Assembly (NCBI RefSeq): GCF_008086205.1
Contig: NZ_VSKK01000001.1
Location: forward strand, 930,001 to 994,000
Direction: 5' to 3'
Source: Bizionia myxarmorum
Lineage (GTDB): Bacteria > Bacteroidota > Bacteroidia > Flavobacteriales > Flavobacteriaceae
Length of the DNA: 64,000 nucleotides
The translations under genes and the position numbers were made by a program. This document shows positions 15,878 to 23,050 of the stretch, piece after piece. How positions within the stretch are numbered: position 1 is the stretch's first letter; every line of letters starts with the position of its first letter. The notes beneath the pieces were generated by a model. That model searched no databases, was not told where the DNA came from, and saw only the letters and a program-made list of their open reading frames with translations.

Positions 15878-18106
15878 ATGAAATTTTTATTCAACAATGC
15901 GTCAGTTTTTCGCTGGCAAAATCTTCAAAAAGCAGCTTTGCTTCCAGTAATTTTAACAACTTCTATGGGTGTTTTTGCCCAAGAAAAACCAAAAGATTCT
16001 ACCAAACTAGAAACCTTAGATGAGGTTTTGGTGCGCTCGGTTCGTGTTAAAGCAGATTCGCCCATTACACACTCTAATCTTTCAAAAGAAGATATTCAGG
16101 AACGTAATTTAGGTCAAGACATTCCTATTTTATTAAACTTTTTGCCGTCAGTTGTTACAACATCGGATGCTGGCGCTGGCGTAGGTTATACCGGTATTCG
16201 TGTACGTGGAATTAATGCGCAATCCACGAATGTAACCATTAACGGAATTCCTTATAATGATGCAGAATCATTAGGTACATTTTGGGTAAATTTAAATGAC
16301 TTTGCCTCATCTGTAGAAAGTTTGCAGTTACAACGTGGTGTTGGAACATCTACCAACGGTTCTGGTGCTTTTGGTGCCAGTGTCAATGTTCAAACGGATG
16401 CGGTTTCAAATGAAGCTTATGGTGAGTTTGCTAATTCCTTTGGAAGTTTCAATACGCGAAAACATACTTTAAAATTCAGTACCGGTTTACTAAACGACCA
16501 CATAGAATTTGCTGGGCGTTTATCTAATATTAAGTCGGATGGCTATATTGATCGTGCCACCTCTAATTTGAAATCTTACTTCCTTCAAGGTTCCTATAAA
16601 ACGGCCAATACCTTAATAAAAGCGATTACCTTTTCGGGGAAGGAAATAACTTACCAATCATGGAATGGGTTGGAAGATTTGGATAAATTGGAAAACGATA
16701 GAACCTACAATACAGCTGGTGAATACACGGACGAAAATGGCAACATTCAATTTTATAAAAATGAAGTGGATGACTATCAGCAGGATCATTATCAAATGCA
16801 TTGGAATCAACGCTTTGATAACAATTGGTCCACTAATATGGCTTTAAATTACACAGCTGGACGTGGGTATTTTGAGCAGTATAAAGAAGATGCAGCCTTT
16901 GTAGATTACGGTTTGAATGATGTAACCATTGGAACAGAAACTATTGAGGAAACCGATTTGGTCCGTCGTCGTTGGTTGGATAACGATTTTTACGTGGTAA
17001 ATGCGAATGCCAATTACAAAAACAATACACTAGATGTGCTTTTTGGAGGTTCTTATAGTTATTATGATGGCGATCATTTTGGAGAAGTTATTTGGGCGCA
17101 ATTTGCAAGTAATAGTATGAATACAGATCGTTATTATGACAGTAAAGGTTTAAAAAAAGATATTAATTTTTTCGGAAAAGGAACCTTTAAGTTGAATGAT
17201 AACATGAGTCTTTTTGCTGATTTGCAACTGCGATTAGTGGATTATACTATAGACGGCATAAACTCGGATCGAATTCCGTTTGATGTAGATGAAAAGTATT
17301 CATTTTTCAATCCGAAAGCAGGAATTAACTATAAGTTTAATACTATAAATAGTCTGTATTTTTCGTATGCACGTGCTAATAGAGAACCTAATCGAGATGA
17401 TTTTGAAAACAACGCCGATGTTAAACCAGAACAATTAAATGATTTTGAATTAGGCTGGCGTCATGATACTAAAAACTTCCGAATTACCACCAATGTCTAT
17501 TATATGCTTTACAATGAACAATTGGTGTTAACTGGAAATATAGATCAGTCTGGTAATCCTGTCCGTACTAACAGTGGCGATAGTTACCGTTTAGGTTTGG
17601 AAGTGGAAGCGGCGGTTCAAATTGGTGAAAAATGGCGTTTACAACCAAGTTTAACATGGAGCTCCAATAAAAACAAGGAAACTATTATGGAAGTTGATGG
17701 GAGTTTAGTGAATTTCGGGCAAACGTCTATTTCTTTTTCACCAGAATGGATTGCTTCTAATGCCTTGACATTTCAACCTATTAACAATTTACAGTTAACG
17801 CTTTTAAGTAAATTTGTAGGTGAACAATTTATGAGTAATACCGAAGCAGCTGCCTCTAAATTGGACAGCTATTTTATTAATGATTTGAGTATTAATTACG
17901 AAATAAAAACGAAACGGTTTTTAAAATCTATTCTGTTTTCTGGATTGTTTAACAATATATTAAATGTGAAATATGCATCCAACGGTTTTTATTACACCTA
18001 TGATGATACTTGGTCTAACGCACCGCAAGTCACCACTATGGATGGCGCTGGATTTTATCCACAAGCAACTTCTAATTTCTTATTGGGAATGACTTTGAAG
18101 TTTTAG
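15878..18106 (+). CDS. TonB-dependent outer-membrane receptor, predicted thiamine/thiamine-precursor uptake
   Basis: A 742-residue outer-membrane protein: signal peptide ending at VFAQ, a TonB-box-like LDEVLVRSVRV, a plug domain (about 60-170, with TGIRVRGINAQSTNVTINGIPYND-type signature seen as IRVRGINAQSTNVTINGIPY), and a long beta-barrel ending in a terminal Phe after alternating hydrophobic residues. The start at 15878 is chosen for the signal peptide; the frame runs on upstream into the riboswitch, which cannot be coding. Control by the TPP riboswitch predicts thiamine or HMP/thiazole uptake, as proposed for OMR1 receptors of Bacteroidetes. It lacks the carboxypeptidase-like domain of SusC proteins. 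Confidence 0.9.
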   Translation: MKFLFNNASVFRWQNLQKAALLPVILTTSMGVFAQEKPKDSTKLETLDEVLVRSVRVKADSPITHSNLSKEDIQERNLGQDIPILLNFLPSVVTTSDAGAGVGYTGIRVRGINAQSTNVTINGIPYNDAESLGTFWVNLNDFASSVESLQLQRGVGTSTNGSGAFGASVNVQTDAVSNEAYGEFANSFGSFNTRKHTLKFSTGLLNDHIEFAGRLSNIKSDGYIDRATSNLKSYFLQGSYKTANTLIKAITFSGKEITYQSWNGLEDLDKLENDRTYNTAGEYTDENGNIQFYKNEVDDYQQDHYQMHWNQRFDNNWSTNMALNYTAGRGYFEQYKEDAAFVDYGLNDVTIGTETIEETDLVRRRWLDNDFYVVNANANYKNNTLDVLFGGSYSYYDGDHFGEVIWAQFASNSMNTDRYYDSKGLKKDINFFGKGTFKLNDNMSLFADLQLRLVDYTIDGINSDRIPFDVDEKYSFFNPKAGINYKFNTINSLYFSYARANREPNRDDFENNADVKPEQLNDFELGWRHDTKNFRITTNVYYMLYNEQLVLTGNIDQSGNPVRTNSGDSYRLGLEVEAAVQIGEKWRLQPSLTWSSNKNKETIMEVDGSLVNFGQTSISFSPEWIASNALTFQPINNLQLTLLSKFVGEQFMSNTEAAASKLDSYFINDLSINYEIKTKRFLKSILFSGLFNNILNVKYASNGFYYTYDDTWSNAPQVTTMDGAGFYPQATSNFLLGMTLKF

Positions 18107-18478
18107 GTCAAGTTGCTGCGGAGGCAGAAACCTCATAGATACATTTACAGAACTTTAGTTTTTAGAATGTCTTGACATTTGAACTTCAGATAAAAACTGC
18201 TTAAAAACAAAGAAACGTTTTTAAGCAGTTTACTTTTAGGAGGTGTTTTTACGGGAAAACCGTAATGTGTTTTGCAACTTTTCGATGAACTGCATGAATT
18301 CGGTAGGGATTGTTACTCAGATAGTTTTTTTTCTTTTTATATTTTTGAAATAACAAAATTAACTTTGAGTTATTTGAGAAATCTCTTTGTAGGAATTTTA
18401 AATAGCGTTCAGTCGATTCACATAAAAGAGGAGGTTGGTTTTCTTCAGCATCATGTACTGACTTTAAATAATTTTAGC
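18107..18478. other. Intergenic region before the broken CPBP gene
   Basis: About 370 bases. It holds the receptor terminator at 18194-18231 and a possible -7 box TATTTTTG at 18340-18347. A frame opens at 18272 ahead of the CPBP start at 18479, but the extra 69 residues do not look like a CPBP N-terminus. Confidence 0.5.
18194..18231 (+). terminator. Hairpin after the TonB receptor
   Basis: A perfect 15-base stem (AAACTGCTTAAAAAC / GTTTTTAAGCAGTTT) with an 8-base loop. The T-run after it is short (TACTTTT), so termination strength is uncertain. Confidence 0.7.
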
Positions 18479-19345
18479 ATGCAAAAATATAAAAAGGTTT
18501 GGATACTTTACACGGCTTTATTTAGTATAGCATTAGCCATAGTTTTTTTATGTTTTTCAGATAGCGCAGTTCTTTCTGATCAGCAGGTGGATAAACCCTT
18601 TTTTCAAATTGCTTTTCTTGCTGTTATATTGGCTCCAATTATAGAGGAACTCATATTTAGAGGCTATTTTAGTAGTCAGAAATACTTAAAATGGGTAAGC
18701 ATATTATTGCTGCCCATTTTTGTTATTTTAATTTCAACACATTTAACGGTAATTTTATTATTAGCATCGCTTTAGGTACTATTACTCTTATATTTTAAAT
18801 TTAAGAAGTCGTTTTTAGAGGATTTAGTAATAGTATTTAGCGCATTACTATTTTCTATACTACATTTTCAAGCGGAAGATTTTAATCAATTATTTTCACT
18901 TTATCCTGTTATGTTTCTTTTTGCATTAGGACTTCTTGCAATTTGGATAACAATAAATTTTGGGCTAGTAAAAGCAATAATTTTTCATTTTGTTTGGAAT
19001 TTGGTTATAATGTTAGTTGTCTTTTTTGCATTACAAAATCCAGACATTAACGTTAATAAATTTGAAAATGAAACTATAGTTATCGAATGGGAGAGAAGCC
19101 CTTTAATTAATTCCAATTCAAAAGGCATTTCTTATTCGAAAGAAAAATTAATTGTAAATAGTATTACTTTAAATAACCTTTTAAGTTTCGTAAATCAGGT
19201 AGAATTAAATAAGGACTTAAATAATCAATATTATCAAACTGAAGTTTTTATGAAATATAATTTCAAAATTTATTTGAAAGATTCCACAAAAAGACTTTCA
19301 AAACCAATTACGGATTATTTTAAAAATCAAAAGCTATTAGAGTAG
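18479..19345 (+). pseudogene. CPBP-family intramembrane protease gene broken in the middle
   Basis: Both halves of a CPBP (CAAX/bacteriocin-processing) protease are present in one frame but separated by TAG at 18773-18775. The first half (98 codons) has the catalytic EExxxR motif as PIIEELIFRGYF; the second half has the FxxxH motif as LFSILHFQ near 18850 and HxxxN as FHFVWNLVIM near 18990, plus a 75-residue tail. A different reading is two compensating one-base shifts: the +1 frame between about 18740 and 18800 reads HFNGNFIISIALGTITLIF, which looks like natural membrane sequence. Either way no full-length product is encoded as given, unless the read is wrong. Confidence 0.75.
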
Positions 19346-19415
19346 GAGTATTCAATGATTGAGTTTTAAAGAGAAAAATTTTAGTAAATTAGCGAATAAA
19401 ATAGTTTCTAAAATC

Positions 19416-19613
19416 ATGAATGAAGATCAAAAAAATAAACACTTATCTAAAAAGTTTTCACCTTATTTCCTAGTCTATATTATTGCTACGACGTCTATCT
19501 TTTTTATTTTCCCGCATGAACTTTTGGGGAATACATATGTTTTAATTACTTATTTGACTATTAGTTTAATTTTTATTTATATCTTTTTCAAGTATAAAAA
19601 GAATCTTGATTAG
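19416..19613 (+). CDS. Small two-helix membrane protein, tandem copy A
   Basis: A 65-residue protein starting MNEDQKNKHLSKKFSPY, with two hydrophobic helices (about 18-34 and 42-58), a loop motif FPHELLGN and the C-terminal sequence FFKYKKNLD. The ATG at 19416 is chosen because the neighbouring copy begins at the matching residue; the frame also runs upstream to 19359. No family recognised. It follows the broken CPBP gene by 70 bases in the same direction. Confidence 0.6.
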   Translation: MNEDQKNKHLSKKFSPYFLVYIIATTSIFFIFPHELLGNTYVLITYLTISLIFIYIFFKYKKNLD

Positions 19614-19628
19614 AATAAACCAAAAATT

Positions 19629-19826
19629 ATGAGTGAAGATCAAAAACGAAAATACTTAATTGAAAAATTCTCACCCTATTCTCTTGTATACCTTGTAACT
19701 ACCGCATTTGTGTTCTTTATTTTTCCACATGAACTTATGGGGAACATATATGTTTTGAGTGGCTATTTTATAATGTGTTTAATTTTTATCTATATCTTTT
19801 TTAAGTATAAAAAGAATTTAGACTAA
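19629..19826 (+). CDS. Small two-helix membrane protein, tandem copy B
   Basis: A 65-residue paralogue of the preceding gene with the same length and no gaps: MSEDQKRKYLIEKFSPY, the shared loop FPHELMGN, and an identical ending IYIFFKYKKNLD. The two copies are 15 bases apart, so they arose by tandem duplication and are probably co-transcribed. The conservation of the loop and C-terminus, while the helices diverged, suggests both are expressed proteins. Function unknown. Confidence 0.65.
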   Translation: MSEDQKRKYLIEKFSPYSLVYLVTTAFVFFIFPHELMGNIYVLSGYFIMCLIFIYIFFKYKKNLD

Positions 19827-19832
19827 AGATAT

Positions 19833-20279
19833 TTAATTATTATAAACCCGAATAATATTACCGGTTTTCTCTACATAATAACGTTTTAAGCCGTAAGGTC
19901 CAGGCGTACCTTCTTGGGGTTGTCCCGTTAAAATATCGTAGGAATTAGCATCACTACAACCACAAGTTGCGATAACACCTGTAACAGTTAGTTTAGAACA
20001 ATCGCGAATCACATGATTCGGGTCCGATAATTCAAAAGCATTGTAGTTATTACCGCCGGCATAAAAAACTACCACACCATTAATGCCATAAGTATTATTT
20101 AATAACACATAGTTATTTGGGAATTCCATATCACTATACTGCGGTAAATTGGTGTTTATTAAACTACCAGTATCAAAACCATAATTTGGTAAAAATTCGT
20201 TTTGGCGTTGATCGTCATCATTTTTGCTGCATGAAGTTATAAGTAGAGACGCAAAAACAAATAAAAATAGATATTTCAT
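19833..20279 (-). CDS. Lipoprotein with degenerate Rieske-like fold pattern
   Basis: A 148-residue predicted lipoprotein (lipobox ITSC, Cys17). The pattern NAFELSDPNH, then CSKLTVTGVIATCGCSDANSYDILTGQPQEGTPG (quoted in parts: GVIATCGCSDANSYDIL and TGQPQEGTPG), then LKRYYVEKTGNIIRVYN, resembles the beta-layout and G-x-P loop of Rieske-type domains common in Flavobacteria lipoproteins. The classical C-x-H and C-x-x-H ligand pairs are not present, so a [2Fe-2S] cluster is doubtful. Single gene, divergent from greA. Confidence 0.6.
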   Translation of the reverse strand: MKYLFLFVFASLLITSCSKNDDDQRQNEFLPNYGFDTGSLINTNLPQYSDMEFPNNYVLLNNTYGINGVVVFYAGGNNYNAFELSDPNHVIRDCSKLTVTGVIATCGCSDANSYDILTGQPQEGTPGPYGLKRYYVEKTGNIIRVYNN

Positions 20280-20439
20280 AACCAGTTATTATTTGAGGGC
20301 AATTTACAACAAAAAGACCAACTCATTAAAATTTTCGTATATTTAGGAGACTATAAAAATGCAGTTCAAAACTGTTTAAAGCAAGCTACTTATCCTATTT
20401 TTAACAATTCTGAAATTTACAGGAGTCGAAAAAATTGTG

Positions 20440-20447
20440 TAGCTTTG
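20440..20447 (+). promoter_or_regulatory. -7 element of greA
   Basis: TAGCTTTG matches TAnnTTTG and would start a leader of about 100 bases before greA. The -33 region is weak. Confidence 0.55.
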
Positions 20448-20454
20448 TATTTAT

Positions 20455-20530
20455 ATCTCGTGCAAGCGGGATTTTTTTATGCTGAACAGATTGGTCGCTA
20501 AACGACCATTTGTTTTCAGCATCTTTTTTT
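20455..20530 (+). promoter_or_regulatory. Two tandem terminator-like hairpins in the greA leader
   Basis: Hairpin 1 is ATCTCG-TGCAAG-CGGGAT (20455-20472) followed by seven T. Hairpin 2 runs from 20479 to 20522 with outer arms ATGCTGAA / TTCAGCAT and inner arms TGGTCG / CGACCA around loop CTAAA, followed by CTTTTTTT. The greA ATG is only 21 bases further on. Both therefore lie between the predicted promoter and the gene and have the form of intrinsic terminators. This could be an attenuator sensing transcription-elongation state. Confidence 0.65.
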
Positions 20531-20551
20531 ATTATTAAAAATCATGAAATT

Positions 20552-21025
20552 ATGAGTAAAATATCATATTATACGGAGGAGGGCTTAAAGAGATTACGTG
20601 AAGAGTTACGCCAATTAAAAGATGTGGAGCGTTCAAAAGCATCTCATGCTATTGCTGAAGCAAGAGACAAAGGAGATTTAAGCGAGAATGCTGAATACGA
20701 TGCCGCAAAAGAAGCACAAGGCATGTTGGAAATGAGAATCTCCAAGTTAGAAGGCGCTCTAGCTGGAGCTAGACTTATTGACGAATCTCAATTAGATAAC
20801 ACAAAAGCATTAGTGCTTTCTAAAGTGAAAATAAAAAATCAAAACAATGGTATGGAAGTAACGTATACTTTGGTTGCCGATGGAGAAGCAGATTTAGCAG
20901 CTGGTAAAATTTCCGTTAATTCACCTATAGGAAAAGGTTTATTAGGAAAGTCGGTTGGCGAAGTGGCCGAAGTGCACGTACCAAACGGTGTTATTAAATT
21001 TGATGTTTTAGAAATTTCTAGATAA
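20552..21025 (+). CDS. greA: Transcription elongation factor GreA
   Basis: A 157-residue GreA of normal length: N-terminal coiled coil (about 1-75) with the acidic tip DKGDLSENAEYDAAKEAQG that reaches the RNA polymerase active site through the secondary channel, then the C-terminal FKBP-like domain with SPIGKGLLGKSVGE. It stimulates cleavage of backtracked RNA. The start at 20552 (MSKISYYTEEGL) matches the family; the longer open frame from 20510 runs into the leader hairpin. Confidence 0.97.
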   Translation: MSKISYYTEEGLKRLREELRQLKDVERSKASHAIAEARDKGDLSENAEYDAAKEAQGMLEMRISKLEGALAGARLIDESQLDNTKALVLSKVKIKNQNNGMEVTYTLVADGEADLAAGKISVNSPIGKGLLGKSVGEVAEVHVPNGVIKFDVLEISR

Positions 21026-21078
21026 CAACCTTAACGGAGCTTCGACTTTGATACAAAATGAATCACTAAAATATTCTT

Positions 21079-21110
21079 AAAAAGATTCCCTTAAAACCGG
21101 AATCTTTTTA
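21079..21110 (+). terminator. Intrinsic terminator between greA and the HIT gene
   Basis: An 11-base perfect stem AAAAAGATTCC / GGAATCTTTTT with a 9-base loop and T-run. Confidence 0.85.
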
Positions 21111-21137
21111 TATTTACCAGTATATCAACAGCAAACT

Positions 21138-21527
21138 ATGGCAACATTATTCACAAAAATTATTAATGGCGAAGTTCCGTGTTATAAAATTGCGGAAACC
21201 GAAGATTATTTCGCTTTCTTAGATATTAATCCCAATGCAAAAGGACATACGCTTTGTATTCCGAAGCAAGAAGTGGATAAACTATTCGATTTAGATGAAG
21301 TGGCATATCATGGTTTAATGGAATTTTCTAGACAAATTGCTTTAGCTATTGAAAAAGCCGTGCCATGTAAACGTGTAGGAATGACGGTTATTGGACTGGA
21401 AGTGCCGCATGTACATGTACATTTAATTCCCTTGAATACGATGGAAGATGCTCGTTTTATTTCAAAAGAAAAAGTGTCAGAACAAGATTTTCAGGCTGTA
21501 GCCGAAGCTATACGGGCGCACTTATAA
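21138..21527 (+). CDS. HIT-family nucleotide hydrolase/transferase (HINT-like)
   Basis: A 129-residue histidine-triad protein with the motif HVHVHLIP (His91, His93, His95) near its C-terminus and the N-terminal TKIINGEVPCYKI typical of the HINT/Hit branch. These hydrolyse AMP-lysine or other adenylated substrates. The stop codon overlaps the end of the convergent zinc-ribbon gene by six bases; both genes end Leu-stop in the shared palindrome TTATAA. Confidence 0.9.
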   Translation: MATLFTKIINGEVPCYKIAETEDYFAFLDINPNAKGHTLCIPKQEVDKLFDLDEVAYHGLMEFSRQIALAIEKAVPCKRVGMTVIGLEVPHVHVHLIPLNTMEDARFISKEKVSEQDFQAVAEAIRAHL

Positions 21528-21875
21528 ATTGGATAAATATAGAGTTACGGCTATAGCAATTACTATAATGGCAATACTAACAATGATGCCAATCCAAGCC
21601 AATCTCTTTAACTTAAAAGATGCTTTTTTTGGAACAAAGGCACGTTGGTGGTAATCAAAAACACGATCTATATCATCAGTCCATGTTACGGGGTAAATAG
21701 CTGTTTCACAGGTTTTACAATATAACTGATGCCTTGTTTCACTGGTTAGTGATTTGTAAAAGCGCGTATCCTTAAAACGTTGTTTAAATGTTAAATGCAA
21801 ACCATTAGTATTGTAGCATTCTGGACAGTTATTGTTTATAGCAACTTCCTTAATAGTCATAAATTGATCGTCCAT
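21522..21875 (-). CDS. Small zinc-ribbon membrane protein
   Basis: A 117-residue protein with two Cys pairs, CPEC near residue 17 and CKTC near residue 53, forming a probable zinc ribbon, and one C-terminal membrane helix (about 90-114). No named family recognised. It starts two bases after the stop of the histidine kinase gene, so it is the second gene of a two-gene operon and may be functionally linked to that kinase. Confidence 0.65.
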   Translation of the reverse strand: MDDQFMTIKEVAINNNCPECYNTNGLHLTFKQRFKDTRFYKSLTSETRHQLYCKTCETAIYPVTWTDDIDRVFDYHQRAFVPKKASFKLKRLAWIGIIVSIAIIVIAIAVTLYLSNL

Positions 21876-21877
21876 AC

Positions 21878-23050
21878 TTACGTGGTTTTAAAAACGATTT
21901 GCATGCTGGTTCCTTTATTAATTTCAGAATCAAGCACATATATTTTTCCATTATGGAATTCTTCAATAATGCGCTTTGCTAATGATAAACCTAAACCCCA
22001 ACCTCGTTTTTTAGTTGTAAATCCCGGTTCAAATATACGTTTAAATTGACTTCTAGAAAGTCCTTTGCCACTATCTGTAATGGTTATTTTTACGTTGTTT
22101 TCTAATTGTGAAATAGCTATTATTAATTTCCCTTTGCCACGCATAGCGTCAATAGCATTTTTAACTAAATTTTCAATAGTCCAACTGTAAAGTTGCTTAT
22201 TCAATTGCACATAAATAGGATCTTCAGGCGCTAAAATTTCAAATTCAATAAGTTTGGAGGAACGCGTTTTTAAATAATCATAAGATTCTAGAGTTTCGGC
22301 AACAATATCAACCTTTTCCAGTTTGGGCAAGGAACCAATTTTACTGAAACGTTCGGTAATTGTTTGCAAGCGACTGATGTCTTTTTCAATCTCCATGATG
22401 TATTCAGGGTTCACATTTTCAGTCTTTAATATTTCGGCCCAACCAATTAAGGACGATAATGGTGTGCCAATTTGATGTGCCGTTTCTTTAGCCATCCCAG
22501 ACCATAGTTTATTTTGTGTCGCGATTTTGGTGCTGCGATAAAAAAAGTAGGCCACAGCTCCAAATAATATAATGATAAGTAAAAGCGCTAAAGGATAATA
22601 TTTCAGCTTATCTATTAAGGGTGAATTTCCATAGTATAATTTACCCACATCAATTTTTTGCTTCATATCTGTATCATAATATGAAAGATCGATGGGGATA
22701 TTTTCCGCCTTAAACTGTTCAATAAGCTTATTAATAAACACTTTATTAGCCAGTTTAGTACTATCTATATTTCGAAATGAGCTAACCTCGTTATTCTGGT
22801 CAACAACAATCATAGGATTATCATTCTTCGTATCGAAAAACACTTTAGATGAAACCGGATTTAAATTGTCATTTAATAAATTTTGCTGAATATCCATTTG
22901 AGCCGCAGCCCAAACATCCATTTTCTTACGCTGTTCTTCCTTAAAATGCTGAAAGAAGATATAGGTATTGCCTAGAATAAGAGATATAATTATAAAACTG
23001 GCGGCAATAATTATCCAGCGTGTTAGATTTCGATATTTATAAAAAAGCAT
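21878..23050 (-). CDS. Membrane sensor histidine kinase without adjacent response regulator
   Basis: A 390-residue kinase: membrane helix 1 (about 12-34), a ~115-residue extracytoplasmic sensor domain, helix 2 (about 152-171), then the H-box AKETAHQIGTPLSSLIGW with phospho-acceptor His192 and an HATPase domain with NLVKNAIDAM (N box), DSGKGLS (G1) and GWGLGLSLAKRI (G2). The H-box variant HQIGTPLSS is common in Bacteroidetes kinases. No response regulator lies next to it. Promoter not identified. Confidence 0.9.
   Translation of the reverse strand: MLFYKYRNLTRWIIIAASFIIISLILGNTYIFFQHFKEEQRKKMDVWAAAQMDIQQNLLNDNLNPVSSKVFFDTKNDNPMIVVDQNNEVSSFRNIDSTKLANKVFINKLIEQFKAENIPIDLSYYDTDMKQKIDVGKLYYGNSPLIDKLKYYPLALLLIIILFGAVAYFFYRSTKIATQNKLWSGMAKETAHQIGTPLSSLIGWAEILKTENVNPEYIMEIEKDISRLQTITERFSKIGSLPKLEKVDIVAETLESYDYLKTRSSKLIEFEILAPEDPIYVQLNKQLYSWTIENLVKNAIDAMRGKGKLIIAISQLENNVKITITDSGKGLSRSQFKRIFEPGFTTKKRGWGLGLSLAKRIIEEFHNGKIYVLDSEINKGTSMQIVFKTT

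Follow-up and report, generated by a model that had tools for sequence, protein, structure and literature searches.

A predicted intrinsic-termination attenuator in the greA leader of Bizionia myxarmorum, and its counterparts across the Bacteroidota

Leaders that attenuate transcription of greA have already been published for Proteobacteria, bacilli and Clostridia. In Escherichia coli, an intrinsic terminator lies between the greA promoter and greA, and gives rise to the short leader RNAs termed GraL (PMC6829880). Only roughly one third of transcripts pass this terminator. GreA increases GraL at the expense of greA; when GreA is lost, expression of a greA fusion goes up about 3.5-fold and GraL down about 4-fold, and the GreA mutant D41A fails to repress. 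Surveying 302 genomes, Naville and Gautheret (2010) ranked greA/rnk leaders seventh among attenuated gene families, and cited Merino and Yanofsky (2005) as the first to see attenuation there (PMC2965389). Nearer at hand, in the family Flavobacteriaceae, 64 structured 5' elements have been tabulated in Flavobacterium psychrophilum, with pheA, hisG, ftsY, acsA, alaS and rimP named as conserved examples (PMC9723704). Here, we describe the greA leader of another member of that family, Bizionia myxarmorum, in a stretch of 64,000 nucleotides (‘the window’; positions 930,001 to 994,000 of contig NZ_VSKK01000001.1). Two tandem hairpins, H1 and H2, precede greA in the window, each followed by a run of seven T's. 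Attenuation as such is, in our judgment, very probable here. On balance, we favor the fuller account: that the leader is an intrinsic-termination attenuator, that greA is made by read-through, and that this is probably subject to GreA-dependent feedback, as in GraL.

The greA gene (20552–21025, plus strand) encodes 157 amino acids. It was identified from the list of open reading frames (ORFs), from Pfam matches to GreA_GreB_N and GreA_GreB, and by alignment to E. coli GreA, with which its product shares 44% identity across 149 residues; the residues that match D41 and E44 of the E. coli protein are retained. Ahead of it, on the same strand, is a TAnnTTTG −7 box (TAGCTTTG; 20440–20447), the predicted greA promoter, recognized by reading the sequence and by the enrichment of such boxes near leader hairpins. 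The sigma-A box of F. psychrophilum occupies −12 to −5 (PMC9723704), and setting the window box at these positions places the predicted +1 at about 20452, and so the start of H1 at about +4. H1 (20455–20472), the core terminator hairpin, is supported by finder, fold and covariation. It has a 7-bp stem and a GCAA loop (ATCTCGT-GCAA-GCGGGAT), and the first T of its T7 run (20472–20478), the predicted release point of a transcript about 27 nt long, pairs within the stem. H2 (20479–20522) is longer and more stable (−20.2 kcal/mol). A single C separates it from its own T7 run (20524–20530), the predicted release point of a transcript about 79 nt long, and 21 bases then remain to the ATG at 20552. 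A preliminary description of the window had reported both hairpins and both T7 runs, the second hairpin being long and ending 21 bases from the start codon, and it was correct to within a base or two.

The resemblance to GraL is one of position: a predicted terminator between promoter and gene, and short leader RNAs, predicted here. The preliminary description had drawn the same parallel, and our evidence supports it. In detail the two leaders differ. The E. coli hairpin spans +19 to +48 and needs the sequence from +1 to +18 (PMC6829880), whereas the window stem begins at about +4; the window leader also has a second terminator in tandem, and its stem sequence, by inspection, is unrelated. It therefore lacks the +1 to +18 portion and the related sequence that mark the enterobacterial GraL. 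It does have what defines greA-leader attenuators in general, a predicted terminator between promoter and start codon on the same strand that does not belong to an upstream gene, and in this respect it resembles the greA/rnk leaders of Naville and Gautheret, where 5' terminators likewise precede the gene (PMC2965389). With the F. psychrophilum elements (PMC9723704) it has in common the bacterial family, and membership among cis-regulatory leaders without Rfam matches.

The RNA from 20453 to 20530 folds as precisely H1 plus H2, at −28 kcal/mol. Shuffled versions of it average −12.4 (SD 2.8; z = −5.6), and none of 200 is equally stable. When the stretch is extended into greA (20452–20600) both hairpins are retained, although z is then −2.8 and two of 200 shuffles are equally stable. 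A terminator scan of 18000–23000 picks out H1 together with the inner portion of H2. Its total for these 5 kb (five sites, versus 2.7, SD 1.8, in shuffles) is unremarkable alone. Searching the whole window against Rfam gave no family at the gathering score, and the reading as a known RNA family was rejected; under a lax threshold the leader gave two sub-threshold matches, both on the opposite strand and judged to be noise.

The gene closest upstream of greA lies on the minus strand (19833–20279), as the preliminary description implied when it noted no upstream gene in the greA orientation, so neither H1 nor H2 is the 3' terminator of an upstream gene in the window. This divergent neighbor encodes a predicted 148-amino-acid protein with a start that we read as lipoprotein-like and with no Pfam family. 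Promoter, hairpin, T run and gene thus share a strand, with no upstream gene to be served. This is the anatomy of an attenuator, and termination in the greA leader, as predicted from it, is strongly implied.

To follow the element beyond the window, we assembled greA leaders from 204 loci of the phylum: six from the genus, including the window's own genome, the best 80 of 590 relatives, and a further 29 and 89. The 29 come from 60 listed genomes and the 89 from 148 (29 loci, and 60 picked by hand across families); the two lists overlap by the window's own genome and one other, and 118 leaders were drawn from both. The sample is phylogenetically redundant, and Flavobacterium species are over-represented. 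Within it, 117 loci are termed ‘Flavobacteriaceae-type’, a group that we defined by record annotation, kinship and leader type, and not a formal taxon. A hairpin-plus-T-run finder of our own making was applied to the 150 nt upstream of each greA start; in its one positive control, it recovered the terminator of the E. coli greA leader.

Conservation of the hairpins in relatives, on which the preliminary description made its reading depend, is borne out. The finder reports a terminator-like hairpin in 182 of the 204 leaders, versus 19 in the antisense direction and 10.5 in shuffles, and at least one leader is positive in 28 of the 33 families sampled. By group, positives number 105/117 among the Flavobacteriaceae-type leaders (antisense 11; shuffles 3.0) and 77/87 among the remainder (antisense 8; shuffles 7.5). 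In all 12 of the Flavobacteriaceae-type misses a hairpin is visible by eye, weaker or farther upstream; the box is degenerate in three of these (L034, L070 and L074) and falls outside the printed stretch in a fourth (L049). Among the 10 other misses, five display a hairpin and T run by eye (L154, L189, L197, L200 and L203) and three are doubtful (L151, L160 and L185). Two or more such hairpins occur in 43 of the 204 leaders, versus 0.2 in shuffles, and an additional terminator-like hairpin lies between H1 and greA in 40 of the 108 leaders in which box and terminator could be paired, as described below. By these counts, the predicted terminator that recurs across the phylum is H1, and H2 is a second one, lineage-restricted.

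Upstream orientation could be assessed at the 141 loci with enough flank, 60 short stretches (L147–L206) and three short contigs being omitted. ORF calls here were naive, and two (L004 and L090) are plainly wrong. The neighbor is divergent at 121 of these loci. There, 109 of the 121 greA leaders are positive, versus 10 of the neighbors' own leaders, and five of those 10 are H1, or part of it, read backwards. It is barely credible, then, that the hairpins are the 3' terminators of upstream genes, or chance. Genes codirectional with greA do lie upstream at 20 of the 141 loci, but the neighbor is divergent in the window and at the 121, and chance is opposed by the shuffles and by the covariation of H1.

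Box and hairpin belong together. Among the 182 positives, 130 have a TAnnTTTG box no more than 40 nt upstream of the hairpin (8.6 when shuffled), the commonest spacing being 6–7 nt. Box–terminator pairing by program, under relaxed thresholds, succeeded for 108 of the 117 Flavobacteriaceae-type leaders, and in the nine left unpaired a box-like sequence and a hairpin can be seen by eye. In 83 of the 108, the first base of the stem falls at predicted +1 to +4, and the RNA predicted to be released has a median length of about 29 nt (range 25–55). A hairpin that begins within a few nucleotides of +1 has no RNA upstream of it from which an antiterminator or a ligand sensor could be built. This makes it very improbable that the leader is a classic attenuator, or a riboswitch, in which an antiterminator competes with the terminator. 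Antiterminators have been drawn in the greA leaders of enterobacteria and bacilli (PMC2965389), but where H1 starts at +1 to +4 the upstream partner is missing—an argument that covers H1, not H2—and Rfam offers no riboswitch match.

T runs are retained along with the stems. For this count the T-run requirement was dropped, the box was relaxed to TAnnTT[TA]G, and the best hairpin was taken over all boxes in 330 nt. A relaxed box is then present in 116 of the 117 Flavobacteriaceae-type leaders and a box-adjacent hairpin in 112, versus 37 in shuffles; and the 7 nt that follow the stem include at least four T's in 108 of the 112, versus 12 of the 37 (a somewhat lenient control, as only the chosen stretch was shuffled, and once). 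These figures bear on whether the hairpin instead protects the 5' end of the mRNA and keeps an AU-rich start region open for translation, termination being incidental. The hairpin does sit at or close to the 5' end, with an AU-rich stretch between it and the ATG. A stabilizer would have no need, however, of a T run kept directly after the stem, nor of a second hairpin with a T run of its own, and we regard this explanation as distinctly unlikely.

Covariation was examined in H1 with 59 of 103 distinct box-plus-hairpin cores (the 69 with cores of 26 nt or fewer, minus 10 from other families). In this set, chosen for having a hairpin, 98.1% of cells are paired; when the partner is slid by 1–3 columns, pairing reaches 56.8% at most. 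Both sides have changed at four of the eight pairs, and none of 500 shuffles attains the covariation score. In this alignment, then, H1 pairing is maintained through compensatory change, and with the shuffle comparisons this rules out a chance fold. The preliminary description had suggested testing both stems for covariation. H1 shows it; for H2 it was seen in a set that was fitted to structure and carries no control. Among 32 relatives chosen by eye, at least seven of eight arm pairs form in 30, and the arms change in compensatory fashion, as from ATGCTGAA/TTCAGCAT to ATTCCGAA/TTCGGAAT. These arms were anchored on the structure in place of a free MAFFT alignment, which misaligned the 5' arms of short hairpins; for one leader (L119) the arm set captured a different hairpin.

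In six Muricauda/Maribacter-like leaders (L030, L038, L040, L043, L046 and L142), the outer arms of H1 are retained, as AAATCCTC and GAGGATTT or something very similar, around an extra inner helix.

Both the stem and the loop of H1 vary in sequence between genera, and this drift argues against recognition by a sequence-specific factor. It also argues against the short leader RNAs being small RNAs that act in trans, as GraL does on nudE in E. coli in addition to its role in cis (PMC6829880). An H1 RNA of about 27 nt is almost entirely hairpin, its loop and stem are not constant from genus to genus, and in the H1 cores compared we saw no conserved unpaired seed; despite the precedent, such a role is improbable.

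The element is also specific to greA. In a 464-kb sample of the window's own genome, only three of 104 divergent-gene leaders are positive with the finder: those of greA, an unrelated gene and a DEAD-box helicase. Of the three, that of greA alone combines the hairpin with a box no more than 40 nt away. Codirectional genes are positive in 19 of 113 cases, ordinary 3' terminators included. A covariance model of box plus H1 scores the greA leader at 45.8 bits and the next-best, the gyrB leader, at 27.6 (150 of 3907 candidates scored), and scanning the 464 kb directly with the model returns the same two top matches in the same order. With one strong match, a motif repeated genome-wide is ruled out. 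Two Gre paralogues were examined, and for these a shared leader is likewise ruled out: L003 has no such leader, and L002 has only a hairpin 140–166 nt upstream that resembles the end of another gene.

The helicase gene just mentioned (L231:512–1817, minus strand; named from its translation) has its terminator-like hairpin 37–60 nt before the start, and a divergent neighbor. In the gyrB leader (L226:13130–13179; G000:C5:1463130–1463179, plus strand; the gene again named from its translation), a hairpin resembling H1, with its T run, comes after the box TATATTTG and 61 nt ahead of the ATG. Among 30 gyrB leaders of the family, the finder is positive in 10 (antisense, one), not all of them box-adjacent. 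By eye, about 12 of the 30 carry a hairpin and T run; their stems differ, and they belong mostly to closer relatives of the window.

How might the greA leader work? RNA polymerase would start at about 20452, and H1 would be the first RNA made. Pausing in the T7 run of H1, polymerase would often terminate there, yielding a transcript of about 27 nt; polymerases that pass H1 would meet H2, where a second release is possible at about 79 nt, and greA mRNA would come only from those that read through both. The recurrence of H1 at greA points to a simple device that limits the amount of GreA. Since no RNA lies upstream of H1, its regulation would most likely act on polymerase itself, with cleavage-competent GreA raising termination and so holding its own level down, as in E. 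coli. Given the E. coli precedent and the retention of D41 and E44, we take GreA-dependent feedback to be the likeliest form of regulation, a claim that, by itself, we consider plausible rather than probable. H1 and H2 might alternatively stop a fixed fraction of transcripts, set greA at a low dose and sense nothing. As a bare hairpin and T run, devoid of a sensor domain and free in sequence provided that pairing is kept, H1 would suit this well. A weaker promoter would achieve a low dose more cheaply, however, and retention across the phylum, together with the E. coli precedent, suggests regulation; we think an unregulated attenuator unlikely.

Several observations weigh against feedback-controlled attenuation. 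The greA start site and termination are both predictions. H1 by itself is weak, at −6.8 to −7.3 kcal/mol. Of the 108 paired leaders, 25 have a stem that begins elsewhere than at +1 to +4 (12 before and 13 after). In three of the 108, a TAnnTTTG motif that could act as a bypassing promoter occurs after H1 and ahead of the ATG. Two leaders, L187 and L193, lack such a hairpin even by eye. All 20 codirectional loci are positive, and at these the terminator may be that of the upstream gene. Differences in the stem from family to family disfavor a single sequence-specific factor throughout the phylum. E. coli, too, furnishes some of the difficulty (PMC6829880): autoregulation by GreA was seen in vivo and not reproduced in vitro, an unknown accessory factor was invoked, and the full effect needed both the native hairpin arms and the segment from +1 to +18, which has no counterpart in leaders whose H1 begins at +1 to +4.

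We found no report of a greA leader terminator in Bacteroidota among the titles listed in the literature searched; subscription papers and supplements lay outside its scope, which makes this weak evidence of absence. Words beginning ‘Bacteroid’ or ‘Flavobact’ are absent from the main text of PMC2965389; the main text of PMC9723704 makes no mention of greA; and ‘greA’ does not appear as a whole word in the searched passages of two Bacteroides thetaiotaomicron papers (PMC10994844 and PMC7366714). What appears to be new here is a predicted greA leader attenuator in Bacteroidota, near-universal in the sample, and a predicted hairpin at the 5' end that leaves no room for an upstream antiterminator.

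In E. coli, work on the mechanism of GreA feedback has stalled over a factor yet to be identified and over the sequence that precedes the hairpin (PMC6829880). A leader that amounts to hardly more than a hairpin followed by a T run, and that compensatory change has preserved, is a far simpler test bed. If such leaders respond to GreA, feedback can do without both the upstream sequence and a sequence-specific factor; if they do not, feedback was added in the enterobacteria to an attenuator of wider distribution. The greA leaders also supply a natural case, many times repeated, in which termination is predicted no more than about 30 nt from the start site. More speculatively, the greA leader of Bacteroidota could be a minimal sensor of polymerase state that reports the tendency to pause and backtrack at a promoter-proximal T run, for when the terminator begins at +1, polymerase, with GreA in its secondary channel, is the sole plausible sensor. 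If this is true, the same arrangement at gyrB in this clade would make it a device shared by genes whose products sustain elongation.

Two minor features of the locus may be mentioned. A four-codon mini frame, ATG AAA TTA TGA (ATGAAATTATGA; 20544–20555, plus strand), ends with a stop codon that overlaps the greA ATG. An ATG occurs at −8 of greA in 56 of the 117 Flavobacteriaceae-type leaders, in 48 of these as ATGNNNTTATGA (a count with no other-gene control), and frequently within a AAACGATGAAGTT-ATG context; it may reflect translational coupling, merely the initiation region, or chance. Farther upstream, beyond the divergent neighbor, three small plus-strand ORFs occupy 18911–19826, the last two of which (84 and 65 amino acids) look alike by eye, an apparent tandem duplication.
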